Shown piece by piece: positions 27,946-63,860 of a DNA stretch of 64,000 bases. The stretch comes from Hemileia vastatrix (lineage: Eukaryota > Basidiomycota > Pucciniomycetes > Pucciniales > Zaghouaniaceae). The notes beneath the pieces were generated by a model, which saw only the letters and a list, made by a program, of their open reading frames with translations, was not told where the DNA came from and did no database searches. The stretch is taken from NCBI GenBank assembly GCA_030280995.1, contig JASXTE010000014.1, forward strand, positions 26,485,650 through 26,549,649, in the 5' to 3' direction. Position 1 is the first letter of the stretch, and every line of letters begins with the position of its first letter. A program made the position numbers and the translations under genes.

Positions 27946-27968
27946 CCTCCGAAATGAGGATAAACTAC
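27946..27968 (+). ncRNA. Mini-hairpin at A1 gag stop
   Basis: CCTC-CGAAAT-GAGG followed by ATAAACTAC. The stem is 4 bp and the ATG at 27954-27956 overlaps loop and stem. The identical arrangement follows the gag frame of element B at 31863. Confidence 0.6.
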
Positions 27969-28084
27969 TTAATTTGTTTTGGTTTTGCTTAATTTGGCCT
28001 CTATGTATTTGGTCAGGATTTTTTTTTGTTGTTTTGTCCAATTCTTTTCAGTCTCTCTGGTTCAAGTCTCTATATAAAAAAGGA

Positions 28085-28150
28085 AGGCCAGGCCGCTTCA
28101 GGAGGCACCTCCGACATCGGGCGGCCCGCCCGTAATAAAAAAAAAAATCT
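28085..28150 (+). repeat. GC-rich LTR-like hairpin fragment with A tail
   Basis: A roughly 45-bp segment from GGCCAGGCCGCTTCAGGAGG to GGGCGGCCCGCCCG matches the GC-rich block inside the A-family LTRs (about 25678-25728). It is followed by TAATAAAAAAAAAAA and lies outside any LTR. It could be a recombination scar marking the loss of pol, or a small retroposed piece. Confidence 0.5.
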
Positions 28151-28250
28151 TAGTATAATAAAGATGGAAGAAAAGAAAATTTCAAATGAAGATTGATATT
28201 TTATTTAAAATAAAATGAAGATAAAAATGAAGATTATTGGTTTTATTTTA

Positions 28251-28273
28251 CCTCCAGCATGAGGTTAAACTGC
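28251..28273 (+). ncRNA. Mini-hairpin (CCTC/GAGG type)
   Basis: CCTC-CAGCAT-GAGG then TTAAACTGC. Same motif as in the linker ORFs of B and A2; the ORF around it has been lost in A1. Confidence 0.55.
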
Positions 28274-28364
28274 ATAATTTTATTTCTAAATTGGATTTTT
28301 TTGTATTTCAAGAATTTTAATGGTTTTTTATGGGAGAAGATTTGTGTTGGAAAATCCTTTTTGT

Positions 28365-28453
28365 TAGAAGGTACCCAGGGTGGGGCTTCTAGATTTTATT
28401 TTGGCAGGTGTGGGGGTGACTGATGGACTGGCTGCTCTATTAACAGTTACCCC
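28365..28453 (+). ncRNA. Structured RNA P1, copy 1 (A1)
   Basis: A first stem AGAAG/CTTCT (28366-28370 with 28386-28390) encloses GGTACCC...GGGG. A second long stem GGGGTGACTG/CAGTTACCCC (28413-28422 with 28444-28453) encloses an inner GGACTGGCTGCTC hairpin. Six further copies occur in A1, A2 and B with compensatory changes. Non-coding, downstream of the gag or pol region. Confidence 0.7.
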
Positions 28454-28528
28454 AGATTGTCTGTTTCCAACCCCTTCTCTTAATTTTGTTGAATTCTAGT
28501 ATTGGTTTTTTTTCTTTAACAGGTTTTT

Positions 28529-28551
28529 AGTCCACCATGACTTTAAACTGG
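28529..28551 (+). ncRNA. Mini-hairpin (AGTC/GACT type)
   Basis: AGTC-CACCAT-GACT then TTAAACTGG. It sits between the two P1 structures; A2 has the same placement at about 60678. Confidence 0.6.
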
Positions 28552-28629
28552 AAATTAATTTGGTATTCAAGTGCTGGTACCCTCATGCTTATTGTTTTTG
28601 TTTAATTTTGTTGGATGTTGTGTTTTTGT

Positions 28630-28720
28630 TAGAAGGTACCCAGGGGTGGGGCTTCTAGATTTTATTTTGGCAAGTGTGGGGGTAACTGATGAGCTGGCTG
28701 CTCTGTAGAACAGTTACCCC
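28630..28720 (+). ncRNA. Structured RNA P1, copy 2 (A1)
   Basis: AGAAG/CTTCT stem (28631-28635 with 28652-28656), then a perfect 10-bp stem GGGGTAACTG/CAGTTACCCC (28679-28688 with 28711-28720) enclosing GAGC-TGGCT-GCTC. Confidence 0.75.
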
Positions 28721-28793
28721 AGAATGTCTGTTTCAAACCTTTGGTTTTTTTCTAGTTGAATTCTAGTGTTGTTTTTTTGTGATTCAGGTTTAT

Positions 28794-28816
28794 AGTCCTC
28801 TATGACTTTAAACTGG
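28794..28816 (+). ncRNA. Mini-hairpin (AGTC/GACT type)
   Basis: AGTC-CTCTAT-GACT then TTAAACTGG, following P1 copy 2 as in A2 (about 60943). Confidence 0.6.
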
Positions 28817-28856
28817 ATTGCCTTGGATGTCTTTTGGTGCTTTTGGATTGGTGGTG

Positions 28857-28912
28857 GATCACTGGTGGTCTCCCATCATTTTTACTTATTGGAGGGAGCC
28901 CACCCAGTGATC
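28857..28912 (+). ncRNA. Structured RNA P2 (A1)
   Basis: Outer stem GATCACTGG/CCAGTGATC (28857-28865 with 28904-28912), inner pairing GGTCTCCC with GGAGGGAGCC, and an A/T-rich loop. Related copies are at 36919-36983 (B) and 61010-61065 (A2). Confidence 0.65.
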
Positions 28913-29133
28913 TCTTCTGTTGACCTGGAGCTGGCTTTGCTATGTGGTTCTAGGGTGTTGGCTGTGGAAGTGGTGGATTCAAGATTTTTTTCTTTTTTTC
29001 TCTTTTTTTTCTTTTAATTTTTTTATGGAGGCTATGTTTGTTCAAAGGCTCAACATAGGGCTCTGGAAATGTTTTTGGTAGAAGAGAAGGAGTCAAAATA
29101 AAAATAAAAATATTAAATTTTTTTTAGGTGTGA

Positions 29134-29203
29134 CCACATCAAGGTGCACTTGGATGTGGGTAAGGTATCAGGGGATCAGCTCATCAATTGGCTGGGGGAT
29201 ACC
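29134..29203 (+). ncRNA. Structured RNA P3 (A1)
   Basis: Two adjacent hairpins. The first is CCACATC/GATGTGG (29134-29140 with 29153-29159) around AAG-GTGCA-CTT. The second is GGTATC/GATACC (29164-29169 with 29198-29203) with inner CAGC/GCTG. Copies at 37050, 61242 and 61438 vary in a pairing-preserving way. Confidence 0.7.
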
Positions 29204-29366
29204 ATTTTATTTTGTTTTATTTGTTAAAGGAGGTTAAATGTTTTGGCTTTGATGGTTTTTGGTTTGGGGATTTATGGGATATATCTTCAAGATTTTTTTT
29301 CTGGAAAGTCCTTCAAGACTTTAAACTGATCTTTTAATTACGGGCTCAAGATTTTTTTATGTCCAT

Positions 29367-30478
29367 TGTGGTAGCCTAAAGTTTAGTACGGCACCTAAAT
29401 ATGTAAATGGAGTTATTACGGCGTGCAAGATTGGCGTTATTATTTTTTTATAAAAGGGTTTTATTTAATTTATTGGAGTTTAAAATATGAAGAAATTGGT
29501 CACGAGCAAATGCCTACACAAATACAATTTATTTTACAGAGAAAAATTATTTTTACGGTCTGAAAAATTTATAAGTATCAAGTCAAGTCACTCAAGAACC
29601 TTGGGAAATTTTCCCAGAATTTTTACTATTTTTCTTATATTTTTAAATGAATTTTAATGTTTTATAGAAATATTTACGTTTTCAAAAATTACTTAACTTT
29701 GATGAATTTTCACGGGGTAATTAGAGCTGCGCAGACTACGAAAATTAGTTTGGTATGTAAAGGGGAAGTAGCTCTATTATGTGTAATTTTTCTAGATTTT
29801 TTATTATAGTTTTAAGGTTCTAATTGAGTCCGGAAGTCCGGACGGACTCCGTACGGACTTCGTACGGACTCCGTACAGGCTCCGGATTGACTCTGGAAGA
29901 GCTCTGGAGGGGAAAACTTAGGCACGTGACTAGGAATACTTAAGCGCTTCTCAAACTCGAAATTGAGGGGGGGGGGACACATCATACAGCTTAATCATTA
30001 ACCACCACAGTCTCATTTTTTATTACTCAACAAATTAAATAAATTTGTAATACCCTTATAACTTTATATTTTTATATTTAACATTTTAGAAATACTATTC
30101 AACAATTTAAATCACACTTCATACAGGGTATCTTTAGAAAGGTCTTCGTCTCTGGGACTTGATTATTGCTGTCTCATAAAAATTCAAATTATTATAAAAA
30201 CATAAAAGTCAATCTTTACAGATCTTTCACTGGTACACCTTAATTGTTGTTATCAGTATTTCTTTCTCAACAGCCACTTTCTTTTAATCTCAATAAGAGT
30301 TAAATATTTTAGAGTTTCATTATTTTCATCAATCAGATCCAAGTAGATTGGTTAGCTTAGTGATTTAGAATTCCCATTTTGTTATCTTTATTGGAAGGAC
30401 GGGGTTTTCGGCTAAATCCACATATCTCCTCCGGATTCTGCTTACAGCAAGGCAACTGTAAGAGTTTATCTTACCATA
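29367..30478 (+). repeat. Element B 5' LTR
   Basis: 1112 bp. A TATAAAAGGG box is at 29449-29458. A GC-rich CCGTACGGACT tandem at about 29828-29890 differs in copy number from the 3' LTR. The end is set by comparison with 39971-41102. Confidence 0.93.
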
Positions 30479-30479
30479 G

Positions 30480-30496
30480 TTGGCGCCCAACGTGGG
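30480..30496 (+). promoter_or_regulatory. Element B primer-binding site
   Basis: TGGCGCCCAACGTGGGG starts one base after the 5' LTR, the position and TGG start expected of a tRNA-primed PBS. Confidence 0.75.
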
Positions 30497-30653
30497 GTTC
30501 GATTTCTCTAGCTTTCTTTAAAGACTTACTTGGATCCAGAACGTTATTAGCCTGCAAGAGGCTTATTTTCTGGAACTCTAATTGGATTTTTGTTATTGGC
30601 CTGCAAGAGGCTTGTTATTTTAACGGTTGTTAACGCTTTTCTTATGTTTTGGG

Positions 30654-31860
30654 ATGTCTTTTACTAGTGGAACTGCTGTGTTGGCTGCTGGTGTACCTGT
30701 TAGGGAATCAGTAAGGATTGTATCTTGGGTTGGGCCCAAGTTTTCTGGAGATGATTTAGAAGGATTTTTACATAGGTATGAAACTGCAGCTGCGATTGAT
30801 GGTGCTTTACCTTTGGATATGGTGAAGCAGATTAGGTTCTTTATTTTGGACAGAGAGGTGGAAAAGGAGGTTATTTCTATGGATGGTTATAAAGATCAAG
30901 ATTGGAGAAAGCTCAAGATGGAAATGGAAAAAAGGTGGCCAAAAGTTTATTCATTGGGGGATCTAAAGGATATAGCTAGGAAATGGGAATCAAAAGGTGG
31001 TGTAACATCTCTGCATCAGTATCATCAGTTTATGGTTGAATTTCAGGTGGTTCTGGATTATTTGTTGGAGTATGAAATTTTATTTCATGATAATGCATCA
31101 AAGTATATTTTTTGGGTTGCTATGGGGGAAAAGGTTAAGAAAGATCTTTTGATGGTGCTTGTTAATGGGAATTTAATGAAGGATCTCCCAGATGGAGAAA
31201 CTAGGATTCCTGGTATGGAGGTGCTAAAGAAGGTTATTTTGGAACATCTGGATACTCATAACTCTGTTGATTTGGACTCTGGAGAAGACACTGAGGTCTC
31301 TCAAGAGATAGAAGAGGATGGTGTAAAAGAACTAGTTACTGATGAAATTTTGGATTCAGCCATTCCTGATGATTTTGTCCAGCCTGAAGATATTATTTTT
31401 GTTGACTCTTCTTTTTGGAAAGAAGAGGTTTCTGAAGATGAAGATATTATTGTCACTGATGAAGAAAATTTGGATGTTGGGGATAATTTTGTTTTGGATA
31501 ATTTGGAATTTGATTTAGAGGAATATTTACCTCAGGTTTTGTCTTCAAAAGCGGAGACTGTCTGCAATTCAGATGGGGATATGGTTCATGAATCTGGTAT
31601 ATGTATGGTGGATTTTTTTTCAATCTCAGGAAGAGATTTTTATGGAGGATATGGTTTTTCCTGCACTAATAGAGAGTGTAGTGCCATTGAACAATAGGGT
31701 GCATAAAGTGGATGCACTCATATTTTGGAAAAAGGTAGTTTATTTTTTATGTCCTTTTATAGGACAAATTCTGGGAATTTATTTTTGGGTTTTATGGAAT
31801 CGGTGGATAAGCCCTTGGGGCAAAATTATGGATTATCTCCAGGGGATATCAAGAATTTAA
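30654..31860 (+). CDS. gag: Element B Gag-like protein (frameshifted at a T-run)
   Basis: First ATG in a good position gives MSFTSGTAVL. The capsid-like region has VRIVSWVGPKF, DMVKQIRFFI, KGGVTSLHQYHQF and KYIFWVAMG, paralleling A1 and A2. An acidic tail follows. The opening frame ends at 31697, but the frame one base over (31573-31860) ends GISRI-TAA just as A1 ends GISRV-TGA. The shift coincides with T8 at 31613-31620, so a slippage or sequence error there is likely. The C-terminal piece is strongly hydrophobic (FWKKVVYFLCPFIG), possibly membrane-associated. No CCHC zinc knuckle was seen. Confidence 0.7.
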
Positions 31861-31862
31861 TT

Positions 31863-31885
31863 CCTCCGAAATGAGGATAAACTAC
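31863..31885 (+). ncRNA. Mini-hairpin carrying the start codon of the linker ORF
   Basis: CCTC-CGAAAT-GAGG then ATAAACTAC, 2 nt after the gag TAA. The ATG at 31871 in its loop and stem opens the linker ORF, a stop-to-start gap of 10 nt. A1 has the same spacing. Confidence 0.6.
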
Positions 31886-32965
31886 CTAAACTCAGCTGTA
31901 ATTTCTTTTATTGTTATGTCTTCAATTTATTCAGGATTCAAATTATTATGGATGCCCTCATTTTTTGGGGTAGCAGGGGCTGATCACTCTAATGTTGTAA
32001 TCTCTCCTCAGGATGAGATCCCGGATTGCAATAGGTCAGCTCACTTGGAGATAATTCAAGTGGATTCTCAATTATTTTCTGTTAATATTACTTTGGAGTG
32101 CAAATATGTTTTGGACTTTTCTATATGTTTATTGGATTTACCCGGTTTTTCTATTAAATTTAAAAACGGTGAAAAAGGCAAAATGGGCCAAATTAGGTTG
32201 GATAAAAATTGGAAGGGTACGTTTGATTACCTCCAGCAAGAGGGTAAACTGCGAAAATCTTATCAAAATCCAATAAAAAATCTCAGTATAATTAAAACAC
32301 AAAAAAATAATTTTTGTGAAAATTCTATTATGGGCCTCCAGCAAGAGGTTAAACTGCAAGTATCTCCTTCTATCACGGACCTCCAGCAAGAGGGTAAACT
32401 GCAAATATCACATCAAAATCCGATTAAAAATCTCAGTATAATTAAAACTCAAAAAAATTATTTTTGTGAAAATTCAATTCCGGACCTCCAGCAAGAGGTT
32501 AAACTGCCAACTTTCTTTACGGGTGATTTACTGTTGGATAAGGGAAGCAAAGGTGTTGGAAAATCTGTTTATAAATTAGACGAGGGAAAGGAGAAAAGGG
32601 TAAAATTTAAAAAAGAAATAAAATATTTTTCTAATTTTTCTTATTCTGATTCTGACGATGAAGAAGATTCATTTGATGAAAGTTTTAATGGCGATGTTTT
32701 ACCTCAAGTTTATTTAGATGTGGACGCAGCCAAATATAAGAAAGTAGCAAATAAAGTTGGACCTATTAATGAACCGCTACCTGCTGAATTAAATCCACCC
32801 TTGAGAAGACCAAGGTTATCAAGAGATCCTTATGAAAGTCCCTTGGTAAAGAATCCGCCTGAATTTTCTGAGACGTCAAGAATCATTTTGAGAGACTGGG
32901 TGTTGTTAATTTTGGACCTGATGGTTGGTTGTCTGGAGATGAGAAGAAGTTGTTGTTGGATGTGA
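31871..32965 (+). CDS. Element B linker ORF with in-frame hairpin-encoded repeats
   Basis: This 364-residue ORF lies between Gag and RT. The N-terminus contains GADHSNVVISPQDE, matched in A2 by GADHPSATTSPQDE. Four mini-hairpins at 32230, 32335, 32380 and 32485 are all read in the same phase and give DLQQEGKLR, GLQQEVKLQ, DLQQEGKLQ and DLQQEVKLP; between some of them NPIKNLSIIKTQ is duplicated. The C-terminus LRRPRLSRDPY is shared with A2 and leads into the pol frame at -1. No aspartic-protease DSG/DTG motif is present, although A2 has one just upstream of the same segment. Confidence 0.65.
   Translation: MRINYLNSAVISFIVMSSIYSGFKLLWMPSFFGVAGADHSNVVISPQDEIPDCNRSAHLEIIQVDSQLFSVNITLECKYVLDFSICLLDLPGFSIKFKNGEKGKMGQIRLDKNWKGTFDYLQQEGKLRKSYQNPIKNLSIIKTQKNNFCENSIMGLQQEVKLQVSPSITDLQQEGKLQISHQNPIKNLSIIKTQKNYFCENSIPDLQQEVKLPTFFTGDLLLDKGSKGVGKSVYKLDEGKEKRVKFKKEIKYFSNFSYSDSDDEEDSFDESFNGDVLPQVYLDVDAAKYKKVANKVGPINEPLPAELNPPLRRPRLSRDPYESPLVKNPPEFSETSRIILRDWVLLILDLMVGCLEMRRSCCWM
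32230..32512 (+). ncRNA. Four coding mini-hairpins
   Basis: CCTC-CAGCAA-GAGG followed by GTAAACTGC or TTAAACTGC at 32230, 32335, 32380 and 32485. Stem and loop are invariant here; only the base after the stem alternates. They lie in an ORF yet match non-coding copies at 28251 and 36187. Confidence 0.65.
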
Positions 32966-35900
32966 TGGTCAAGCGAGAGAAGGCCATTGCTTTTGTAGAA
33001 GAGGAGAGGGGTGTGTTGAAGCATTCCTATGGGGAGCCTTACAAGATTCCTGTGGTATGTCATGAACAGTGGCAGCAGAAACCGATTCCTATTCCGGCTG
33101 CATTGAAAGAAGCTTATATCGAAGTTGTCAGAGAACGGATACGCACTGGACTGTATGAGCAATCAACATCAAGTTATTCTAGTCCTGTATTTTGTATCAA
33201 GAAACCGAATGGCAAGCTTAGAGTTGTTCATGATCTTAGGGAATTAAATAGGGTTACAATAAAGGATGCTGGGATACCGCCTAGTGCTGAGGAGTTTGTT
33301 GAAGCGTTTGCAGGGAGAGTGTGTTATGGTTTGGGAGATATTATGGGTGGATATGATGAGAGAGAGTTACATCCGGACTCAAGACCTCTCACTACATTCG
33401 ATACACCACTTGGACGTTTACAGTTAACAAGGTTACCTCAAGGAGCAACAAATTCGGTTGCAGTTTATCAAGCTCAGATGGCTTGGATCCTTCAAGATGA
33501 AATTCCACAATATGCTGGAATCTTTATAGATGATGGAGGAATTAAGGGACCAACAACCAACTATAATAACCAGGTGTTGGAAGAGAATCCCGGGATACGC
33601 AAATTCATTTGGGAGTTTGCAATTACTTTAGAAAGAATCTTGTTTTGAATTGAAGAGGCTGGTTTAACTATTTCAGGTTTAAAATTTTCATGTTGTGTGC
33701 CATCCTTAAAAATATTAGGCCATGTGGTATGTAGAGAGGGTAGAATTATGTCCAAGAAGAAAGTTAACAAAATTCAGTCCTGGCCAAGACCCAAGAATAC
33801 GACCGAAGTTAGAGGGTTTTTAGGCATTTGCGTATATGTTAGAATGTTTATCAAGGACTTTTCTTCATTTGCAGCTCCATTGAGACGGTTAACGAGAAAG
33901 GATGCAGACTGGGAGTGGGATGAAGAGTGTGAGAAGGTGTTTGTGAAGTTGAAGGAGGTTGTGGGGAAGGATTTAGTCCTGCAAAAGTTGGATTATGGAA
34001 AAGATGCTGGCAGAATTTATTTAGCAGTTGATTCAAGTCAGGTTGCAGCTGGGGCGGTTTTGTCTCAGATGGATAAAGCTTGTTACATCAGGCCATTTAG
34101 GTATGAATCTGTAGTATTTACTGAGGTCGAATCAAGATATTCTCAACCGAAATTGGAATTATGTGGTGTGGCGAAAATACTGAAGAAACTTCAGCATATT
34201 TTGTGGGGGCAACATTTTGAGTTGCAAGTGGATGCGAAATCGTTAATCCAGATGATTAATTCCCCAAGTTTACCGAATGCACCCATGACGAGATGGGTAG
34301 CTTTTATTCAACATTTTTCGTTCGATTTAGTTCATAAGCCTGGCAAAACTTTTACTATGCCAGATGGTTTATCAAGGAGACCACCCACTGAAGAAGATTC
34401 AGACTCAGAAGAGTTCGATGAAGATATACCTATTATCAAAGCCAGCACTAAAGGAGCTGAAGATTTTCCATACCTCCCCCATGAGGTTAAACTGGCAGGA
34501 CTATTGTGTTTAGATTATGATGATGATGACCTCCACCAAGAGGATAAACTGGAAAATAGTTTTTATGTTAATAAAGGTGTTGGAAAAGGTGTAGATAAAT
34601 TCGGCAGAGAGGAGGTAGAAGAAGATGTGATGTATGTAGAGGAAGATGGATTGGTAGTGTGGGATAGTAGTAAATTAAGGAATGGTGTATATGTTGGAGA
34701 ATTAGAGAATTTAAATAAAAAGGTGGATAAAGAGAAAGAGGTATTTTCCAATACGGTTTACGAAGGATCCAAAGGTTCAGAAGAAATACGTCGACATAGC
34801 TCGATTAAAGATTTATTTAGGGGTCAACAATTATTGGCTCATTCATGTGCAGGTGATCTTGGTGATAGAGAAGTCCCTATTGATGTTATATTAATCGATT
34901 TTCAAGATGAAGTCTGGGGTCAGACTGGTTTTTATTTTTTGTTAGTCAAATATTTGTTGACTTTAGAGAGGCCAGAAGATTGTGAAGACGATGAATGGGT
35001 AGCTATCAAGAGGAAGTCATCTACGTTTTACCTATCTGGTCGATGTTTAATGAGGAGAAGGTATCCAAATCCTCAAGAAGTTATAACTCAAGAGAAGGGG
35101 CAAGAATTAGTTTTGAAATCACTGCATGAAGATCTCGGGCATAGAGGCGTTGGAGAAACGTTTAGAAGAATTTCTGATCGATTCTGGTGGCCTGGCATGA
35201 AGATGGCTGTTAAACAGTGGGTTCAGTCATGTGAAGAATGTCAAAGACGAAGTTATTTAAGGCCGAAAGAACCTGGACGCGCGACCGGTGAATATACGCT
35301 CTTTGGAAGAGTTAGTTTAGATGCCGTTCATATAAAAGAGGGACGGTATAAATATTTAATTGTTGTCAGAGATGATTTATCTGGTTGGGTAGAGGCAGCG
35401 CCTCTTATTAATTTAACTGCCAAAAATGTGGCAGAATTTTTTTTTGAATAATTGGGTATATAGGTATGGGGTGATGAAGTTGGTAACGGTAGATGAAGGT
35501 CCTGAATTTGGGACAGAGTTTAAAGAGGCCGTATCTAAAGTTGGATCAAAGGTTAGGGTAGCAACCCCATATTATCCTGAAGCTGAAGGCATGGTGGAAA
35601 GAGGGCATCAAGTTATTAAGGATGCTTTAGTTAAAATGTGTGGGAAAAGTGCCGAAAAGTGGAGGCACTATTTACCTTTAGTTTTATTTGCTGATCGAAT
35701 CACTGCCAAAAGGACAACCGGATTTTCACCTTATGAACTTGTTTTTGGACAGAAATCAGTTTTACCGGTTGATTTAGAAGCTGAATCATATCTTGGAGTT
35801 GACTGGGACACAGTCAAAACTACTGATGAATTATTGTGTGCAAGAATGATGCAGCTAGAAAAGAAAGAAGAATATTTAGAAAAGGCATATTCGCGGATGA

Positions 35901-36211
35901 TGAAGATCCGAAATCAATCAGTTAGATATTGGGATGAGCGGTTGGCACATCGATTAAGAAAACCTTTGAACCCAGGTGATATGGTCCTGGTGTATAATAG
36001 GAGTTTGGAAAGTCAATGGGGAAAGATGTTTGCAGATAGGTGGAATGGACCATATAAAATCAAGGAGCAAGTTTCCGGCGGTTCATATGTGCTAGAAGAG
36101 TTGGATGGAGTAGTATTGAAGAAGAGGGTAGCAGCCGATCAAGTGAAACGGTTCTATCCTAGAGGCACCAGGAGTGCCGAAGTCTTCCTCCGCAACGAGG
36201 ATAAACTATGA
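32860..36211 (+). pseudogene. pol: Element B Pol: reverse transcriptase, RNase H, integrase
   Basis: The pol frame lies at -1 to the linker ORF and is readable from about 32880. RT motifs are KPNGKLRVVHDLRELN, GLGDIMGGYDERELH, LPQGATNS and the catalytic box IFIDDGG (FIDD instead of the usual YxDD). RNase H has IYLAVDSSQ, ESRYSQPKLELCG and LQVDAKS. A linker with two more coding mini-hairpins precedes the integrase zinc region (HEDLGH...CEECQRR) and core (LDAVHI, TVDEGPEF, AEGMVERGH). The end is VLKKRVAADQVKRFYPR; there is no chromodomain. Lesions are TGA at 33646-33648 (A2 has AGG) and a +1 shift in T9 at 35437-35445. The RT belongs to a basidiomycete Ty3/Gypsy lineage. Confidence 0.88.
34473..34552 (+). 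ncRNA. Two coding mini-hairpins between RNase H and integrase
   Basis: CCTC-CCCCAT-GAGG-TTAAACTGG (34473) and CCTC-CACCAA-GAGG-ATAAACTGG (34530), translated as YLPHEVKLAG and DLHQEDKLE. A2 has one at 58887 (DLPQEAKLAG) in the equivalent place. Confidence 0.65.
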
Positions 36212-36456
36212 TGTTTATAAAAATCTTATCATCCTCCGCAATGAGGATAAACTACAATTTTAATGACTTTTATTAAATTTATGGATTCCTCCGCAATGAG
36301 GATAAACTATGACATTTATGAAATTATATGGACGAACTCCGAAATGAGGATAAACTACAATTTTAATGACTTTTATTAAATTTATACCTCCGCAACGAGG
36401 ATAAACTATGATATCTACGAAATTTTATGGATTCCTCCGCAACGAGTATAAACTAT
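36187..36456 (+). ncRNA. Array of six CCTC/GAGG mini-hairpins after pol
   Basis: Units near 36187, 36233, 36285, 36338, 36386 and 36436 share CCTC-CGCAAY-GAGG-ATAAACTAT, spaced about 50 bp. The fourth and sixth have one stem mismatch each. The first begins within the last pol codons. A2 has a single decayed copy at about 60446. Confidence 0.7.
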
Positions 36457-36618
36457 CTTTTTTTTTATCAAATAATTTACTATCGTTACACTGCATATGG
36501 GCAACGAAACTGTGATGAAACCTAATGAAATACGAGAAAACCTTCATTGAAAATTTTCAAAATTTAAAATTCTTAAAATATGGGTGATGATAGTGTTGGA
36601 ATATTTTAAAATTTATTG

Positions 36619-36708
36619 GAAGAAGTGTTCACAGGGGAATCTTCTTAATTTAATATTGGCAAGTGTGGGGGTAATTGATGGGCTGGCTGCTCTATACACA
36701 ATTACCCC
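36619..36708 (+). ncRNA. Structured RNA P1 (B)
   Basis: AGAAG/CTTCT stem (36621-36625 with 36641-36645), then GGGGTAATTG/CAATTACCCC (36668-36677 with 36699-36708). Relative to A1 the stem changes AACTG/CAGTT to AATTG/CAATT on both strands, keeping pairing. Confidence 0.75.
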
Positions 36709-36777
36709 ATAATGTTCGTTTCCAAAATTTCCCCTGTTTCTAGTTGAATCCTGGCTTTGTCTTTTAATTTTAGGAAG

Positions 36778-36800
36778 TCCACTAAGACTATAAACTGGAA
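36778..36800 (+). ncRNA. Mini-hairpin (AGTC/GACT type)
   Basis: AGTC-CACTAA-GACT then ATAAACTGG, just downstream of P1 as in A1 and A2. Confidence 0.55.
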
Positions 36801-36918
36801 CAAATCAAGAGACACCGCTCTCAACGCCGGATTCAAGATTTTTTTATTTTGTTTTTCATTTTTTATGTTAGATTGTGATTTCTTTTCTTTAATGTATATT
36901 ATGAATTAATGTAAAGGT

Positions 36919-36983
36919 GATGCTCACTGGTGGTCTCTAATCATTTTTATAAATTGGAGGGAGCTCACCCAGTGATCATCATT
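36919..36983 (+). ncRNA. Structured RNA P2 (B)
   Basis: TCACTGG/CCAGTGA (36924-36930 with 36969-36975), extended by GATG/CATC outside and GGTCTC with GGAG inside. Same order and spacing after P1 as in A1 and A2. Confidence 0.6.
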
Positions 36984-37049
36984 ATAAAAATTATCTTCTA
37001 AAAACTTTCATTTATTTTCTTTTCTTTTCAATTTCTCAAAATTGTGTAA

Positions 37050-37119
37050 CCACATCAAGTTGCACTTGGATGTGGGTATGATGTCGAGGGTACGGCACAT
37101 CAAATGGCCGGGGGGCATC
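37050..37119 (+). ncRNA. Structured RNA P3 (B)
   Basis: CCACATC/GATGTGG (37050-37056 with 37069-37075), then GATGTC/GGCATC with inner CGGC/GCCG. A1 has GGTATC/GATACC and CAGC/GCTG at these places, so both stems change in a pairing-preserving way. Confidence 0.7.
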
Positions 37120-37480
37120 TTTTAAAATTTTATTTTGAAATTTTTTTTATTATTCCTTTTTTTAACTTTCTTTTCACATTCATTTCTTTTTCTTTAAAAA
37201 TTAAATTTTAACTTTTATTTCAAAACTATCTTTTCTAAAATCTTTTATTTTAAATTAAAAATAATAAAATAAATATAAAAAAAAAAATATAAAATATAAT
37301 AAAAATAAAATAAAATAAAATAAAATAAAAATAAAATAATAATAAAAATAATAAAAAAAAAAAATTAAAATTAAAATTAAAAAAAAAAAAAAACAATTAA
37401 ATAAATCAAAATTATTATTATAATTCTTAGTTTTATTTTTCAGTCTTCATTCATTTTAGTTTTATTCATTTAGTTTAGAC
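37120..37480. repeat. A/T-only low-complexity stretch in element B
   Basis: Long runs of A, AAAAT and TTTTA simple sequence; no features. Confidence 0.75.
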
Positions 37481-37538
37481 ACGAAACAGGGTCTAGGGGA
37501 ACTCAATACCAATGGGATTTTACTTCAAGATATCTGTT

Positions 37539-53794: not shown

Positions 53795-53798
53795 TTTC

Positions 53799-55420: not shown

Positions 55421-56264
55421 TTGGTTCCTGTTAACGGTAAACCTGTTGGTGGTTCTGGTCCTCAAGAAGCTTCTAGGACCAAGGTGGTGAAGCCAAGGGC
55501 TCACTTTGAGATGCCAGTAGTTTCTGTTCAAGTTAATGTTATGGACTCTGTCCTGGAAAGGATGAATCAGGGTCAAGGTTTCCCTATCTTATGGGGAATT
55601 GTATGCTATCAGTCCAGGGTTGGCTGATAGACAGAAAAAGTTGTTGACCAAGAGAGGATTTTCTTCTGGTGAGGTAGAATACATTTTTGATTCTGCTGAA
55701 AAGTTTGGTGAGGGGTTGGAAACTCATTTTTCTGCTCCTCTGGGATATATCAATGTCACTCTGAACGGCAGGGAGGCAAGGGCATTGGTGGATTCAGGTT
55801 CTCAGAAAAACCTGATTTCTTTGTTTGAGGAAACTCATATGGGCCTCCCCATCAAAGCTGGTATTGGTGGGAATTTGAGAGGGATTGGTGGCCATGTCAC
55901 TGAATTGGTTGGAACTTCAGAGTTTGTGAAGTTAGATGTTGGCGGAGCCTCAGGGAAGGTTCATTTTTACATTGCTAAAAATAATGTAAAAGCAGTTTTG
56001 GGTGGGCCATTCTTGATGGATTTTCAGGCAAGAATTGGTTATCAATTTGATTTGGGAATCAGTATGGAGTTGACTGGTGAAGATGAAAGGAGACTTCACA
56101 TAAGGTTTTCATCCCCTGGAGAAGAAGGTTGGGAGACCAGGCCTGGTTTATCTTCAATGTGCCAGTGCATGAACTGCTGCAGGAGAAGGATGGAAGTGGG
56201 TGCTGCCTCTAGTTTTTTGGAGTGTTGCTCAGCCTCTATTGAGAGTCTTTCTTTTTTAGAGTAA
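55421..56264 (+). pseudogene. A2 aspartic protease
   Basis: A Gag-Pro bridge (VVSVQVNVMDSVLERM) in one frame passes by a 1-nt shift near 55595 into LYAISPGLADRQKKLL. The protease has ALVDSGSQKNLIS (DSG at about 55794), a GIGGHVTELVG flap-like segment and AVLGGPFLMDF. The ORF stop TAA overlaps the next start as TAATG at 56262-56266. No counterpart was seen in element B or A1. Confidence 0.75.
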
Positions 56265-57163
56265 TGGGGGCTGATCACCCTAGTGCTACAACCTCTCCCC
56301 AAGATGAGGAAATCCCAGGTTGTAGTAGTTCAGCTCCCTTGGAGATATGCCAAGTGTATTTTCAACTTTCTCTTTTTAATGTTTCTCTTCTCTGCAAGTA
56401 TTCATCAAGTTTTTTATCAATTCTCTTTTCTCTCTCAAGATTCTTAATTATTTTTAATTCAAGTTCAAGGAAGAAGATTGGTTATATATTTTTATTGAAA
56501 GATATGCGGAAAAGTTTTGGGGCTGTGAGATTGGGGTCTAAAAGAAAGTCCTCCCAATTGTGCACTGCTAAGGTTTCTTCTACACCTTTCAAAAACATTA
56601 CCTGGGCCAAACCTCTGAGCATTGGGGAAACCCCTGGTTATTTTTGTTGGTCAGAAGAAAACTTAAGAAAAGAAGATAAAAATTTCAAGATAATTCAAGA
56701 AAACCAAGAAAAAAATTTGAAGATAATAAAGAAAGAAGATGCAAAATATTTTTGTGAAGATTGTCAAGATCTATTTTTGGGCCTCCAGTACGAGGTTAAA
56801 CTGCAGAAAATTATGAAGAAAGAAGATCATCAAGATCAATCTTTGGGCCTCCAGCATGAGGATAAACTACACTATTTTAGAAGATGTGATTCAGAATATG
56901 AATCAAGATTTGAAGATTTGGAAGTTGGAAGTGAGGATGAAGATGTGGAATTGTGGAAAAGTTTTGGAGTGGTGAGATTGGGGTCTAAAAGTAAGTCCTC
57001 CCAATCCTGCACTGCTAGGGTTTCTTCTACACCTTTCAAAAACATTACCTTGGCCACACATGTGAGTAATGGGGAAACCCTTGGTTTTTGTTCCAGGTCT
57101 GGTGATGAAGAGTTCCTAAGATCCCTCAAGTTGAAGGTGGAGCGGCAAAGTATAAGAAGGTAG
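56264..57163 (+). pseudogene. A2 linker ORF with coding mini-hairpins
   Basis: Begins MGADHPSATTSPQDE, homologous to the element B linker. Contains duplicated blocks (VRLGSKRKSSQ, SSTPFKNIT) and two mini-hairpins at 56780 (CCTC-CAGTAC-GAGG) and 56847 (CCTC-CAGCAT-GAGG) read as GLQYEVKLQ and GLQHEDKLH, the same phase as in B. It ends at a stop near 57161; the shared RPPLSRDPH segment continues to 57390. Confidence 0.6.
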
Positions 57164-57192
57164 CGCAGAAGATTAGGCCTGTCAATGAGCCT

Positions 57193-60100
57193 ATGCCTGT
57201 GGGTTTGAATCACCCCTTGAAGAGACCTCCTTTGTCAAGAGATCCGCACTGTAATCCTTTGGAGAAGAATTCTACAGAGTTTGTAGAGAGGGCTAGGGTG
57301 ACTGTGGAAAGGTTGAAGTTGTTAATTTTGGTCCTGATGGGTGGTTGTCTGAAGAAGAAAAGAAGTTGTTGTTTCACATTTTTGTGCTAAAGGAAAAAGC
57401 TGTGGCGTTTTTTTAGGAGGAAAGGGGTGTATTGAAGCACTCTTATGGGGAACCTTACTTGATTCCTGTGGTTTGTCATGAACCTTGGAAAATCAAACCT
57501 ATTCCGATTCCAGCCGCTATTAGAGAGGATTTGGTGGAGATTGTTAGGGAAAGAGTCAGGACTGGGTTATACGAACAATCAACTTCCAGCTACTCAAGTC
57601 CAGTTTTCTGTGTAAAAAAGCAGAATGGAAAGTTGAGGGTGGTTCATGATCTTAGAGCCTTGAATTGAGTCACTATCAAGGACGCTGGTATGCCACCAAG
57701 TGCAGATGATTTTGTTGAAGCTTTTTCTGGAAGGGTGTGTTATGGTTTGGGTGATATTATGGGTGGTTATGATGAGAGGGAACTACATACGGATCCAAGG
57801 CCTCTCACAACTTTTGAGACTCCTTTAAGAATATTTCAGCTCACTAGGTTGCCTCAAGGAGCAACTAATTCAGTGACAGTATATCAAGCAATGATGGCTT
57901 GGATTTTACAGGATGAGGTTCCTACTCATGCTGGTATTTTTATTTATGATGGTGGAATTAAAGGACCATCCACTGATTATGGTAATGAGGTGTTAGCAGA
58001 GAACCCTGGAATAAGGAGGTTTGTGTGGGAATATGCAATAACTCTAGAGAGAGTGTTGTTTAGGATTGAAGAGGCTGGTTTGACCATTTCAGGGTTAAAA
58101 TTCTGTTGTTGTGCTCCTGCTTTGGAAATTATGGGTCATGTGGTATGTAAAGAGGGAAGGATTATGGCGAAGAAGAAGATTAATAAAATTCAGTCATGGC
58201 CAAGGCCTAAAAATACTACTGAAGTCAGGGGATTTTCGGGTGTATGTGTATATGTCAGGATTTTTATTAAGGAATTTTCTTTGTTGGATTCACCTTTAAG
58301 GAGGTTAACCAGAAAAGATGCAGATTGGGAATGGACTGAAGAGTGTGAAGAGGCTTTTCAGAAGTTGAAAAAGGTTGTTGGTGAAGATATTGTTCTTCAC
58401 AAGTTGGATTATGGTGTTGGTGCTGGAAAAATTTATCTGGCAGTTGACTCAAGTTTTATTGCTGCTGGTGCTGTTTTGTCTCAGGAGGATGAGACTGGGA
58501 GGGTCAGGCCAGTAAGATATGAGTCTGTGGTGTTTAATGAGGTGGAATCTAGGTATTCTCAACCTAAGTTGGAATTGTGTGGTGAAGCCAAATTTTTAAA
58601 GAAGCTACAGACAGTTTTGTGGGGGCAGCATTTTGAGCTGCAGGTGGATGCAAAATCTTTGGTTCAGATGATCAATAGGCCTATTCTTCCAAATGCTCCA
58701 ATGACTAGGTGGGTGGCATTTATTCAACATTTTTCTTTAGACCTGGTACACAAACCAGGTAAAACTTTTACTATGCCTGATGGATTATCAAAAAGGCCAC
58801 CTAAAGATGAAGATTCTGAGGCTGAAGAGTTTGATGAAGATGTTCCAGTGGTTAGGGCCAGCGCAAAGGGTGCTGAATATTTTTCTGACCTCCCCCAAGA
58901 GGCTAAACTGGCTGGATCTGATCTTGATTCTGGTGATCAGGATGTTTTTGTTGATGAAGATGGAGTTGTTGTTTGGAACAGCTCAAATTTGGAAAAGGGT
59001 GTTTTTTTTAGTGAACTGGATTCTCACAAGGTTCAGTGGAAAGAGAAGGACGTGCCAAAATTTAAAGATTGGTGTCCTGGTTGGGCTGCTCATTTGGCTC
59101 ATGTTCACACTGGTGATTTTGATGACATAATTGTACCCTTGGATGTTGTTTTGTTTGATTTTGAAGATGAGGCCTGGGGTCAGTCTGGGTTTTATTTTAT
59201 TTTGGTGAAATATCTGTTGACCTTGGAGAGGCCAGATAGTTGTGAAGATGATACTTTGTTGGAAATTAAGAGGAAGAGTCTTGGATTTTATGTGTCAGGA
59301 AGGCGGTTGATGAGGAGGAGACATCCAAATCTACAAGTGGTGGTGACTCAGAAGAAGGGTCAAGAGTTGGTTTTGAAGTCTTTGCATGAAGACCTTGGTC
59401 ATAGAAGCTTTGGGGAGACTTATAGAAGAGTAGCAGACAGATTTGGTGGACAGGTATGAAGTTGGCTGTGCAGGGTTGGGTTTAATCTTGTGAAGAATGT
59501 TAAAAAAGAAGTCACTCAAAACCTAAAGAGGTCAGCCGTGCTACTGGCAAATCAACTGTTTTTGGAAGGGTCAGTCTGGATGCTGTCCATATTAAATAGG
59601 GCAGGTATAAATACTTAATTGCTGCTAGGGATGATTTGTCTGGTTGGGTTGAGGCAGTGCCTCTGGTTAATTTGACTGCCAAGAATGTGGCAGATTTTTT
59701 GAAGAAGGAGTGGATTTATAGGTATGGGTTGATGAAGTTGGTGACTGTTGATGGCGGGCCAGAGTTTGGTGCCGAATTTAAAGAAGCTGTGGCTAGTTTT
59801 GGTTCTAAAGTTAGAGTGGCTACACCTTATTATTCTGAAGCTGAAGGCATGGTTGAAAGAGGCCATCAAGTTATCAAGAATGCTTTGGTGAAGATGTGCG
59901 GAGATAGTGCTGAAAAGTGGAGGCATTATTTACCCTTGGTGTTATTTGCTGATAGGGTCACTGTGAAGAGGACAACTGGCTATTCTCCTTATGAGTTAAT
60001 GTTTGGTCGAAAATCCGTTCTACCAGTGGACTTGGAAGCTGTCTCTTATCTTGGAATTGATTGGGATGATGTGCACACAACAGAAGATTTTCTCTGTGCC

Positions 60101-60445
60101 AGGATGTAACAGTTGGAATGTAGAGAGGAATGTCAAGAGAAGGCATACTCTAGAATAATGAAGATAAGGAATCAATCAGTCAGGTACTGGGACAAGAAGT
60201 TGGCTCATAGAGTTAGGAATCTCTTGAAACCTGGTTGTTTGGTTTTGGTGTATAATAGAAGTTTGGAGAGTCAGTGGGGGGAAATGTTTGCTGACAGATG
60301 GAATGAACCCTACAGAGTCAGATCTCAGGCGTCTGGAAGTTCTTATGTTTTGGAAGAGTTGGATGGTGCAGTCTTGAAAAAGAGGGTGGCTGCAGACCAA
60401 GTGAATAGGTTTTATCCCAGAGGCACTAGGCATGAAGAAGATTGA
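57193..60445 (+). pseudogene. pol: A2 Pol: RT, RNase H, integrase
   Basis: Close relative of element B Pol. RT: QNGKLRVVHDLRALN, GLGDIMGGYDERELH, LPQGATNS. The catalytic box is IFIYDGG, the first Asp changed to Tyr. RNase H: IYLAVDSSF, ESRYSQPKLELCG. A coding mini-hairpin at 58887 gives DLPQEAKLAG. Integrase: HEDLGH, LDAVHI, TVDGGPEF, AEGMVERGH, ending KRVAADQVNRFYPR. Lesions: TAG near 57416, TGA 57666-57668 (B has AGG), frameshift near 59450, TAA near 59483 and 59501, TAG near 59598, TAA 60107-60109. Confidence 0.88.
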
Positions 60446-60513
60446 CTCTGCAATGAGGATAAACTATGGAACGTTCTTTGTTTTGGAATTTTTTGGTGTT
60501 GCAGAGAAACTTT

Positions 60514-60607
60514 TTTTTAGAAGTTACCCATGGGTGGGGGTTCTAGATTTGATCTTGGCAAGTGTAGGGGTGACTGATGGGCTGGCTGCTCTATCAACAG
60601 TTACCCC
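60514..60607 (+). ncRNA. Structured RNA P1, copy 1 (A2)
   Basis: Long stem GGGGTGACTG/CAGTTACCCC (60567-60576 with 60598-60607), inner GGGCTGGCTGCTC. The upstream AGAAG stem is weakened (partner GTTCT). Confidence 0.7.
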
Positions 60608-60778
60608 AGATTTTCTGTTTCCAACCCTTTCTCTTAATTTGGTTGAACCCTAGTATTGGTTTCTTTTTACAGGTTTTAGTCCTCTATGACTTTAAACTGG
60701 AATCTCCTCTGGTTTTCATGTGCTGGTCTCTTGACTCTTATTGGTTTTGGTTTTTTGTGTTGGATGTTGTGTTTTTTT

Positions 60779-60870
60779 TAGAAGGTACCCAGGGGGGGGG
60801 ATTCTAGATTTTTATTTTGGCAAGTGTAGGGGTAACTGATGAGCTGGCTGCTCTGTAGAACAGTTACCCC
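60779..60870 (+). ncRNA. Structured RNA P1, copy 2 (A2)
   Basis: GGGGTAACTG/CAGTTACCCC (60829-60838 with 60861-60870) around GAGC-TGGCT-GCTC. Mini-hairpins at about 60678 and 60943 flank it, as in A1. Confidence 0.72.
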
Positions 60871-61009
60871 AGAATGTCTGTCTCAAGTCTTTTGTTTTTC
60901 CTAGTTGAATTCTAGTTCTGTTGTTTATTATTCAGGTTTCAAGTCCACTATGACTTTAAACTGGTTTGGGACTGGCTTCTTTATCTTTGGTTCTTTCAGA
61001 TTGGTGGTG

Positions 61010-61065
61010 GATCACTGGTGGTCTCCCATCATTTTTACTTATTGGAGGGTGCCCACCCAATGATC
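61010..61065 (+). ncRNA. Structured RNA P2 (A2)
   Basis: GATCACTGG/CCAATGATC with one G-U pair, around GGTCTCCC...GGAGGGTGCCC. Confidence 0.6.
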
Positions 61066-61241
61066 ATTTCTATAGACTGGACTTTTGCTTATTGGACCAT
61101 CTATGGAGCTGGACTGTCTTTGATTTTGAAGTTATTTTTTTGCTAGATAGCAGTTTTAGATTATTTTCTTTTTTCTATTTTTTTCTTTAAATTTTTTTAT
61201 GGGGGTTGTTAAAATTATAAAATTAAAAATTTAGGGTGTTA

Positions 61242-61506
61242 CCGCATCAGGGTCACCTGGATGTGGGCAAGCATTGGTGGTGAAAGGCTCATCAATTGGC
61301 TGGGCAATTCTATTTTCTTTTTTTATTTATTATTTATTTCATGTGTTCCTGTGCTTCATTATTTTTATTATCTTCTGAATCTCTAAATTTTTTGATTTTT
61401 ATTTTCTTTTAATCATTTAAATAATTTAATTGTGTATCCACATCAAGGTGCACTTGGATGTGGGTAAGGTATCAGGGGATCAGCTCATTAATTGGCTGGG
61501 GATACC
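61242..61506 (+). ncRNA. Structured RNA P3, two copies (A2)
   Basis: Copy one: CCGCATC/GATGTGG (61242-61248 with 61260-61266) around CAGG-GTCA-CCTG. Copy two: CCACATC/GATGTGG (61438-61444 with 61457-61463), then GGTATC/GATACC. In copy one the inner AAG/CTT pairing of other copies has become CAGG/CCTG; its second hairpin is not preserved. Confidence 0.65.
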
Positions 61507-61783
61507 ATTTTTATTATTTTTTATATTTTATTTTATTTCATTTTATTTATCAATTTTTAATTTTAGTATATTAGTACCTTAAAAAAATAATAATTCTGAA
61601 ATTATTTTTATTAATTGTTTTATATAATTATTATGCTTCTAATCTTTTTGCAGGAGCTCATTGTCTGGATGATGAAGCTTCTGGAAGCTGGTCCGGATTG
61701 TGATGTCATTTTTGTTTTTTGTTAGGATTGTGAGAAGCACTGTGTTCTTTGAAGTGCATCCTGCTGGAGAGATTATATGGATT

Positions 61784-63209
61784 TTAATGGTCAGGAATTG
61801 GATTAGAGGGAAGTTCAGAGGAGGAAGAAAAAGAGGCAGTAAAGGAGTGCTGGAGGGTGTGCTTAATGATCCTAGACATTTTCCAGTGGTCGTCCAACAG
61901 GCGCTTTCTCAGGGATTTTTCAAAGTTATTCAAAGGTCCATGGAGGTAAAAGGCTTTTAGCATGTTGGAACACATGGTGCTTAGGTGTTTCTTAATGTCT
62001 CCATAAACCAGGGTCAACAAAGTTTCAAGAGGTTGGCCAACTCCAATAATAGATTCAGGAGGAGGGGTGCCAACTTGACAAGAAGAATAGGATCAGTAAT
62101 TATTTTTGTTGAAGAAATTGGATAAATTAATTTGGTACTTACAGATTGGAAGCTCATCAAATTTTTAAGCAGCTGGAATTTGGATCTCTGAAGATTTTGT
62201 AATGGTCATAGTGGGTGGATCAACCAGGGAAAGATATAGATTCTCTTGGTCTTTCTCTGTAAGATTTTGAGTAGGTGAACTAGGAGGCTGATGTTCCTGG
62301 GGCCTAGTTGGAGCAGTGGGATTGTTGATGTTGTTGTAGTTGATATTTCTGTTGGATTCAGCTGGAGGAGGTGCTGGTGATAGAGTACCAGGGTTGTTAA
62401 AAGATGGAGCAGGAGAGGGTGATTTGGAAGCAGATTGATCTCTTTTGAATGGAGCTTTTGAAGAGATGGAACTTTCAGAAGAATAGTTGGCTGACAGAGG
62501 AGAGGTGTAGTTTCTTTGTCTTAGTTGGGGACAAAGTTGTTGCTTGGGTGCAGTGTTGGGTGTTCTGGTTTCTTCTTGGGGTTCTCTGGCAGGTCTCCTA
62601 GAAGTTTGGGAAAATTTGAAGTTTTTGGGCCTTAGAAGGGTTGGCTGCGTTGCTCTGGGAGTAGTGAGAGGTGATTGTGTAGAGTTGATTTCGTTGATTG
62701 ATTGAATTTGGCTGTTTTCCGGTTGTTTTTGGAGATTTTGAGCAGGATTTTCACTGTCCAGTGAGGCAGGCGGGCTGCCTGGACGCGGTCTAGAAGCCTG
62801 GGAGCTGATCTTGAAGCTTTTGGATCTAATTTGGCATAGATAAAAGCAGTCTCTTTGGAAGCTAAGGCTGGTCTTTTGGGAAGAGTTCTGGAAGCTGAGC
62901 TTCTGGATCCTCTGGAAGGTACTGAAGATAAAGAGGAAGAGGAAGGACCAAGCTCTGGGGATCTGGTATGGGATCTAGAGATGTATTTATGAGATGGTTA
63001 AGGAGGAGGAATAGGGTAGTTTGCATCTCTGTCACATCTTTTCTTTTTGTAATAGCAAAAATCACAAGCCCTGTTGTAGAATTTGGCTTCAGGAGTTGGA
63101 AGAGTGAATGTGCAAGGTCGGCACATGTGGATGCACTGTTTGCAGGCTTAGTCCTTGGGAGCAGTGAAGCAAGGGAGAGTAGAAGGGTTAACATCAGGAG
63201 ATCCAGCCA
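61784..63209 (-). pseudogene. Long antisense cysteine-cluster gene of A2 (two exons)
   Basis: Starts MAGSPDVNPSTL at 63209. First triplet CKQCIHMCRPC, 15 residues, then CDFCYYKKKRC, giving C-x2-C-x6-C-x15-C-x2-C-x6-C. A Ser/Pro/Asn-rich region of about 280 residues follows in one frame (SASRTLPKRPAL, FKFSQTSRRPAR, SPSPAPSFNNPG). The intron runs from GTAAGT (about 62151) to GTCAAG (about 62088). The C-terminal exon has TLVYGDIKKHLSTM and a helical KSLRKRLLDDHWKM end at 61784. Three TAA codons (two flanking the Cys region, one just before the intron) break an otherwise open frame; the first two fit CAA-to-TAA. It lies upstream of the mini-hairpin block, unlike the A1 and B copies. Confidence 0.62.
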
Positions 63210-63367
63210 TGATCTGTGGTGAGAAAAGATTATGGAAAGGGATAGGAGGAGATTTTTGTCAGTGATGGGTAGATGATGAAGTGAACGTGGAAGTTCAGCA
63301 GGTTGGCTGTAGGGGTGGTCTGTATGAGATTGGCTGCATCTATTTTATGCAAAATTCCGTCAGTCCA

Positions 63368-63860
63368 TCAAGACTTTAATTTGAAATCTGGTTTCTGTTA
63401 GTCCTACAAGACTTTAAACTGGCTGGTTTCAAGATTCTATCAAGACTAGTCCATCAAGACATTAAACTGAACACTGTGTTAGTCCCCCAAGACTTTAAAC
63501 TGAGGATTGTTGTTGGTTTAGTCCCCCAAGATTTTAAACTGAGGGTTGTGAGTACCCCAAGACTAGAAACTGAGGAATGGGTTTCGTTGTTGGAGTTAGT
63601 TTTGAAAGATTGGTTAAGGGTATCCACAGGGGGAGCCTCCAAATTTAGCAAAGGCAATTTTGGGGATAATTTATGGGCTGGCAGCTCTATTCACAATTAC
63701 ACCAGAATGTTAGTTTTTTCTCTGTGTCTTAATGTGGTTGATCTCTGGTTCTGGGTTTATGATTAAGGTTTTTGAGTCCCTCAAGACTTTAAACTGAGGG
63801 TTTTTGAGTCCCCCAAGACTATAAAAGGAGGATGGTCCCCCAAGACTTTAAACTGTGGGT
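63368..63860 (+). ncRNA. A2 mini-hairpin series and decayed P1
   Basis: Units at about 63369, 63400, 63449, 63481, 63521, 63551, 63774, 63806 and 63834, mostly AGTC-CCCCAA-GACT-TTAAACTGAGG. A P1-like segment at 63613-63703 has lost most pairing. Colinear with 41103-41635 of A1. Confidence 0.65.

Follow-up and report, generated by a model that had tools for sequence, protein, structure and literature searches.

The stretch analysed here (the window) comprises 64,000 nucleotides of the Hemileia vastatrix genome (GenBank assembly GCA_030280995.1, contig JASXTE010000014.1, positions 26,485,650 to 26,549,649 of the forward strand). It holds three nested or adjacent long terminal repeat (LTR) retrotransposons, designated A1, A2 and B, and our subject is a 23-nt motif that recurs throughout them, together with its predicted fold and its likeness to coremin, an exonuclease-resistant RNA of viruses. 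An LTR pair, a target duplication and the reverse transcriptase (RT), RNase H and integrase domains are all present in A2, and from the domain order we take the carrier to be a Ty3/gypsy element. A2 lies inside A1, flanked by CCAT duplications, and its insertion splits one A1 copy of the motif. The landmarks of the carriers are as follows.

29367..41102, + strand: A2, with LTRs starting at 29367 and 39971 that are 96.8% identical, and a 4-bp target duplication, CCAT
30481..30497, + strand: sequence TGGCGCCCAACGTGGGG of A2, resembling a primer-binding site and placed immediately internal to the 5' LTR
32929..36211, + strand: A2 pol, with Pfam matches to RVT_1 in 32929-33648 and to RT_RNaseH and Integrase_H2C2 in 33697-35451
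55599..60109, + strand: B pol, with Pfam matches to aspartyl protease in 55599-56264 and to RNase H in 57690-59459

Ten open reading frames (ORFs) were compared with Pfam, and five of them matched, namely A2 RT, A2 RNase H/integrase, B protease, B RNase H and the RT of another element; the RVT_1 match in B ORF 57690-59459 fell below the Pfam cut-off. No Pfam match was obtained for the other five, three on the gag side and two at the integrase end (35426-36211 and 59636-60109), which are named from their position. Among the relatives of the pol ORF, of which 120 out of 142 were listed, the fungal names are Puccinia, Austropuccinia, Phenoliferia, Tilletia, Trametes and Pleurotus, and the best-scoring named relatives are mostly rust fungi and other basidiomycetes; plant and fish names, which score lower, and one bacterial metagenome-assembled genome also appear there. 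No relatives of the element were found in IMG/VR.

Occurrence of the motif in the three elements

On the plus strand, and on this strand only, the working set contains 51 copies of the motif, 36 of them distinct in sequence, of which A1 carries nine, A2 30 and B 12. This set was defined by the inner three stem pairs, a loop starting with C or T, an exact TAAACT and a site to the right of 27 kb, which builds the pairing of those three pairs into the selection. A neutral pattern (4-bp stem in which G-U counts as a pair, 6-nt loop, one base, TAAACT without mismatch) occurs 45 times on the plus strand and not at all on the minus strand, compared with 0-3 sites in 20 first-order Markov controls, and loop lengths from 3 to 11 other than 6 with exact TAAACT give 0-3 sites on either strand. 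If a single mismatch in TAAACT is tolerated, this contrast weakens (58 sites on the plus strand, 15 on the minus strand, 10-25 in controls). Left of 27 kb, four sites with at least three stem pairs are chance-like, and the window scan found no copy in the gypsy-like element at 45-51 kb. Decayed copies beyond the working set lie at 41100, 41133, 41546, 41578, 41605, 63362, 63551 and 63807.

A preliminary description of this DNA had proposed a dispersed family of more than 50 copies sharing a 4-bp stem, a 6-nt loop and a tail. The counts above confirm that design as real, and the figure agrees with our 51 on a slightly loose definition; ten of its eleven named coordinates are exact motif starts, the remaining one (56780) being two bases ahead of the true start at 56782. 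The stem versions CCTC/GAGG, AGTC/GACT and GGTC/GACC and the G-U intermediates that it listed are all present. Rfam 15 gave no match at the gathering threshold in the window, and the three weak sub-threshold matches returned at an E-value threshold for 37450-38600 are seemingly due to chance, with nothing relevant among them; a tRNA scan of the window found none. The copies are distributed as follows, S2 denoting the loop-tail helix described in the next section.

27946..27968, + strand: A1 copy CCTC CGAAAT GAGG A TAAAC TAC, the exact published hexaloop coremin consensus, just 3' of the gag-side stop (ORF end 27943)
28251..29329, + strand: A1 copies 28251, 28529, 28794 and 29307, each with full S2
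31863..31885, + strand: A2 copy lying between the gag-like ORF and the pol ORF and matching the published hexaloop consensus exactly
32230..32507, + strand: A2 in-frame copies 32230, 32335, 32380 and 32485, loop GCA with tail TGC, peptide LQQExKL
34473..34552, + strand: two A2 in-frame copies between RNase H and the integrase zinc domain, peptides LPHEVKL and LHQEDKL
36187..36456, + strand: six A2 copies of the coremin class, loops CGCAAC, CGCAAT and CGAAAT, spacing 46-55 nt
36655..36798, + strand: larger conserved hairpin of A2 (GGGGTAATTG...CAATTACCCC), then copy 36776
37539..38563, + strand: 16 A2 copies in one array at intervals of 40-106 nt, with tail TGG and with stems that are mostly AGTC/GACT and GGTC/GACC
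41107..41343, + strand: right part of A1, with the half copy left by the A2 insertion, followed by copies 41208, 41257, 41290 and 41321
56782..56870, + strand: B copies 56782 and 56848, in frame, peptides LQYEVKL and LQHEDKL
58889..58911, + strand: B copy aligned with 34473, in frame, peptide LPQEAKL
60445..60964, + strand: B copies 60445, 60678 and 60942, the first aligned with 36187
63400..63856, + strand: B array of copies 63400, 63448, 63481, 63520, 63775 and 63834 with decayed neighbours

Several copies stand at gene borders. Copy 36187, the first of the six coremin-class copies in A2, overlaps the stop of ORF 35426-36211. In copy 31863, loop bases 5-6 and the first 3'-strand stem base make up the ATG (31871) of the A2 ORF after gag, and an RNA trimmed to this copy would consequently begin about 8 bases before the AUG. 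The first seven copies of the 16-copy array form a tandem unit of 72-78 nt, and two copies in the right part of A1 combine loop TCA with tail TGA.

A conserved hairpin of greater size (GGGGTAACTG...CAGTTACCCC) recurs at 28370-28500, 28636-28766, 36625-36755, 41395-41525, 60524-60654, 60786-60916 and 63624-63754; in three of the seven, C-G has become U-A through change on both sides. It precedes A1 copies 28529 and 28794, and its distance to the motif copy behind it is nearly fixed, at 95-99 nt wherever it was measured (four cases, of which one involves decayed copy 41546).

Predicted fold and conservation

The register of the motif is fixed: a 5' stem strand of four bases, a loop of six, a 3' stem strand of four, one base, UAAAC and three further bases. 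Within the stem the outer two pairs change on both sides, and the inner two are nearly invariant (U-A in 36 of 36 distinct copies, C-G in 35 of 36). The two-sided stem change described earlier is supported. Next to this U-A/C-G top, the second pair is GC, CG or GU in all 36 distinct copies. The preliminary description had also treated the TAAACT tail as a constant flank, which has to be abandoned: the last three tail bases (TGG, TGC or TGA) pair with loop bases 5, 4 and 3 and change with them, the partners being CCA/UGG, GCA/UGC, UCA/UGA and CUA/UGG. Given this covariation of tail and loop, the motif unit is, as modelled, probably a minimal H-type pseudoknot and more than a hairpin.

All three pairs of this second helix (S2) are found in 36 of the 51 copies, and nine further copies with G at loop base 2 and tail UAC or UAU can form A5-U plus G2-C/U, which brings the sum to 45. 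Stem and S2 types mix, CCTC occurring with GCA/TGC, CCA/TGG and CG/TAY, and AGTC with CCA/TGG and TCA/TGA. When tails were permuted among the 25 distinct loop-tail combinations, the 16 full helices observed compared with a mean of 7.7, and none of 20,000 permutations reached as many; for loop base 3 alone the p value was 0.00065 and for base 4 alone 0.010. A structure count over the 36 distinct rows gave 89.7% of cells paired versus 72.4% when shuffled (0 of 500 as high) and at most 42.8% when slid, with a covariation score of 0.388 versus 0.143 (again 0 of 500), values that are not true probabilities for reasons given below. An alternative fold that uses G2 instead of bases 3-4 scored slightly lower (86.6% paired, covariation 0.365). 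In the same rows pair 7-23 is CG in 15, GC in five, UA in four and unpaired in 12; pair 8-22 is CG in 22, UG in six and unpaired in eight; and pair 9-21 is AU in 35 and GU in one.

Related stretches of the elements were compared in seven ways that share copies and are thus not independent, and in five of them the motif is better kept than its flanks (93.5 vs 85.5%, 91.3 vs 73.9%, 87.0 vs 62.5%, 95.7 vs 70.9% and 95.7 vs 75.5%). The motif differences in these five fall only at loop bases 2, 4 or 6 or at the base after the stem, which are the positions left free by the pseudoknot model; those at loop base 4 are C/U, each able to pair with G. Another comparison consists of the single counterpart pair 36187/60445, with 20 of 23 motif bases alike and flanks at 73.3%. 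Selection on folded RNA or on cruciform DNA had been proposed earlier, and only the first half of this proposal fits: the single strand, the two-sided stem changes and the mostly better kept motif favour RNA, and the restriction to one strand speaks against a cruciform, which would be indifferent to strand.

Likeness to coremin in the window and in phage contigs

As described in the excerpts of PMC10520033 drawn on here, coremin (xrRNA-C) is an Xrn1-resistant RNA of plant and fungal RNA viruses; its sequence is GUCCGAAGACGUUAAACUAC, hexaloops follow the rule YGNNAD, and a further hairpin (hp2) is required downstream. Excerpts of PMC5869530 state that it stops yeast Xrn1. The former source locates coremins in intergenic regions, at stop codons and within coding sequence, reports that they block scanning ribosomes, finds loops CGAAAU and CGCAAU resistant to Xrn1 in the context of beet necrotic yellow vein virus (BNYVV), and says that as of 2023 the structure of coremin had not been solved.

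The register of the window motif equals that of the published hexaloop coremin position for position, and the near-invariant bases are the same as well. Scanning the window with the published rule (stem top UC/GA plus a second pair, loop YGNNAD, spacer UAAACUAC; PMC10520033, in part) returned on the plus strand 4 exact sites, 7 with at most one mismatch, 15 with at most two and 49 with at most three, on the minus strand none, and in 50 Markov controls averages of 0, 0, 0 and 0.2. Separate window scans of two loop classes gave 30 and 4 sites, with none in shuffles. The four copies with the exact consensus carry loops CGAAAU and CGCAAU. A YGNNAD loop is present in seven of the 51 copies (27946, 31863, 36233, 36288, 36336, 41257 and 60445), and the other 44 lie outside this rule, most with a matching change in the tail. 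UAAACU is found in all 51 (by selection) and UAC in five. Positions of the coremin type are occupied as well, by 27946 behind the gag-side stop, 31863 over the ATG of the next ORF and 36187 on a stop codon.

We therefore class the motif, on its sequence, as coremin-like: the core anatomy is present, but one defining feature, hp2, was looked for downstream of the copies and not found. Shared with coremin are the C-G closing pair, the U-A pair next to it and then G-C (in the window also C-G), the single base, UAAAC and U plus two more bases, the loops CGAAAU and CGCAAU, and sites between genes, at stop codons, in 3' regions and sometimes in coding sequence, sometimes repeated. Unlike coremin, the window motif is carried by LTR retrotransposons and not by RNA viruses, in 9-30 copies per element, most of its loops lie outside YGNNAD though mostly matched by their tails, and it has no detectable second hairpin. 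Mini H-type pseudoknots of the preQ1-I riboswitch type combine a short stem, a loop pairing with the 3' tail and an A-rich third loop; this riboswitch is a bacterial metabolite sensor, and we know of no link between it and the window motif. Flaviviral xrRNAs sometimes occur in tandem. They resemble the window motif in being a pseudoknotted, directional block to 5'-3' exonuclease, as is proposed here (PMC7603331, in excerpt), but the window model is far smaller, without a three-way junction or ring fold, and no sequence relation was seen. The statement that no retrotransposon motif of this form had been described holds for the literature searched (titles and abstracts, excluding subscription papers and preprints), where no retrotransposon, cellular or phage coremin was found; the motif itself is, however, known in RNA viruses, as the cited excerpts of PMC10520033 make clear.

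With the published coremin rule, the motif was found in phage leaders as well. Its tetraloop pattern matched nine IMG/VR contigs (L001-L009; L019 and L014-L018 are likewise among the tetraloop/hexaloop loci), and in none of the nine is the motif covered by a same-strand ORF of at least 90 codons; in eight, such an ORF begins 75-96 nt downstream, the contig of L007 ending first. By eye, the ORFs behind the motif in these contigs resemble head-scaffold genes. Six contigs of GTDB matched the tetraloop pattern, five with the same leader, of which two represent one Ruminococcus bromii strain, and L013 differs.

The hexaloop rule returned 74 stretches from IMG/VR (L090-L163) with correct spacing, versus two when the same pattern was made one base too short, a strong over-representation in contigs of DNA phages. 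The second stem pair, which was not demanded, is kept in all 74 and the outer pair in 68. By a rough ORF call, 52 of these stretches are intergenic before a same-strand gene, ten are otherwise intergenic, nine lie in sense and three in antisense ORFs. They represent 62 distinct contexts in which the loops CGAAAT (27) and CGCAAT (17) dominate, an ORF starts 25-99 nt downstream in 41, and hp2 is found in 24% compared with 18% when shuffled. The next gene encodes a head scaffolding protein in seven of ten cases tested (hand-picked, plus strand). Motifs of the class with other loops are in threefold excess (54 stretches vs 17 with wrong spacing), with one motif per stretch and no arrays like those of the window found. 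Rfam gave no family covering the motif in 27 phage loci; at L128 a match to the GP20-b cis-regulatory family starts right behind it. The phage motif is possibly a block to RNase J-type decay; no such report was found in the titles and abstracts searched.

In Clostridia-type phages (L003:8698-8800 and relatives) one to three additional small hairpins come after the tetraloop coremin, much like the arrays of the retrotransposons. These have the loop AGACA, covarying stems and, in most, a tail ending in AACTG, as aligned for 12 of 16 loci (L009, L013, L017 and L018 were excluded).

Possible function, alternatives and other features of the window

From its coremin-class (xrRNA-C) anatomy, we consider it fairly probable that the predicted minimal H-type pseudoknot stalls host Xrn1 on the retrotransposon transcript. 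UAAAC would cross the stem as the third loop of the pseudoknot, and the enzyme, coming from the 5' side, would meet a knot that it cannot thread. After decapping or cleavage of the transcript, Xrn1 would then halt at one of many serial roadblocks, 30 of them in A2, leaving stable 5'-trimmed 3' fragments that contain the pol region or a long 3' region. In this way the RNA of the element may stay available for translation, packaging or reverse transcription, or may occupy the decay machinery. The non-CG loops, which fall outside the published rule, are predicted to function because their tails change to match.

A number of observations weigh against this proposal. The loop and spacer rules are jointly satisfied by only four of the 51 copies, and six copies (41321, 56848, 63400, 63481, 63520 and 63834) lack a full S2. 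Downstream of the 51 copies a hairpin of -1 kcal/mol or below follows in 23.5%, versus 16.5% when shuffled and 23.8% at random element positions, and PMC10520033 calls hp2 "absolutely required" for xrRNA-C, yet describes it as very weak in some natural members. According to the same excerpts, those hexaloops that lacked G at position 2 did not resist Xrn1 when tested in BNYVV, nor did CGAAAC with its final C, a failure that counts against CGCAAC at 36187, 36387 and 36434; two natural virus motifs likewise end in C. In one of the seven comparisons, covering seven copies of which several are decayed, the motif (91.9%) is no better kept than its flanks (92.8%), and B lacks counterparts of the five copies at 36233-36434. 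Finally, two of the five measures of the structure count did not exceed shuffles (two-sided pairs 3 vs 3.8, further pair types 10 vs 11.6) and kinship of the copies inflates covariation, for which reasons its values were qualified above.

An unlikely alternative is that the motif serves as an RNA site for an element protein such as Gag, in packaging or assembly, repeated for avidity, its decay resistance being incidental. The many copies, on the transcript strand only and lying within three elements but not in the gypsy-like element at 45-51 kb, would suit such a site, as would a fold that covariation indicates and that is in most cases better kept than the surrounding sequence. This reading nevertheless leaves unexplained the base-for-base match with the coremin rule and the same loops in phage contigs, and the three gag-side ORFs without a Pfam match identify no RNA-binding partner.

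It is improbable, in our estimate, that the copies are pseudoknots for ribosome stalling or translation control, which would delay ribosomes during scanning or elongation and keep the expression of gag and pol apart. They do lie behind gag-side ORFs (27946, 31863), at a stop (36187) and in frame in linkers, where the ten copies inside ORFs of at least 120 codons all share one codon phase and read LxxExKL, and coremin blocks scanning ribosomes as well (PMC10520033, in part). The other 41 copies, however, are outside such ORFs, mostly in long 3' regions that ribosomes would not reach.

We give equally little credence to a functionless repeat that resembles a mini-satellite and was multiplied by tandem duplication and template switching, in which shared descent would mimic conservation. 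Clear tandem units (about 74 and about 41 nt) and near-identical copies within an array agree with it; the covariation of loop with tail and within the stem, the match to a known functional RNA, and a motif kept in five of seven comparisons despite diverged flanks, with changes only at positions predicted to be free, do not. Selection on the peptide LxxExKL or on DNA, as a binding site or cruciform, is very improbable: the shared phase and peptide of the ten ORF copies, and stems that are inverted repeats, are what it would predict, but one of three phases always yields a stop, which makes the phase weak support for a peptide, LxxExKL occurs once in 120 related proteins versus 3.9 times when shuffled, most copies lie outside these ORFs, none is on the minus strand, and covariation of loop and tail is meaningless for DNA dyads. 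A protein search with the LQQExKL ORF returned one weak match.

If the Xrn1 roadblock proposal is true, exonuclease-resistant RNAs belong to transposable elements too and not to RNA viruses alone, and a retrotransposon withstands RNA decay through dozens of roadblocks. The natural loop-tail variants would then resemble a mutational scan of coremin, and they suggest that loop bases 3-5 form a helix of three pairs with the trinucleotide that follows UAAAC. More tentatively, coremin may be a general decay-blocking RNA knot of RNA viruses, DNA phages and LTR retrotransposons, used here in serial arrays of up to 30 per transcript, whose freely re-paired loop-tail helices would disclose its fold; the RNA of one retrotransposon would then decay into a ladder of protected fragments.

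Elsewhere in the window, two hairpin-like stretches, recognized by eye, are common to the 3' regions of A1 and A2, one at 28860-28920 and 36920-36980 (CACTGGTGG...CCACCCAGTG-like) and the other at 29128-29165 and 37045-37080 (ACCACATC...GATGTGGGT). Direct and inverted repeats that are 65-96% alike and reach about 500 bp in length cluster at 2181-4135, and a tandem array of about 600 bp with an 11-bp period lies at 23944-24534.

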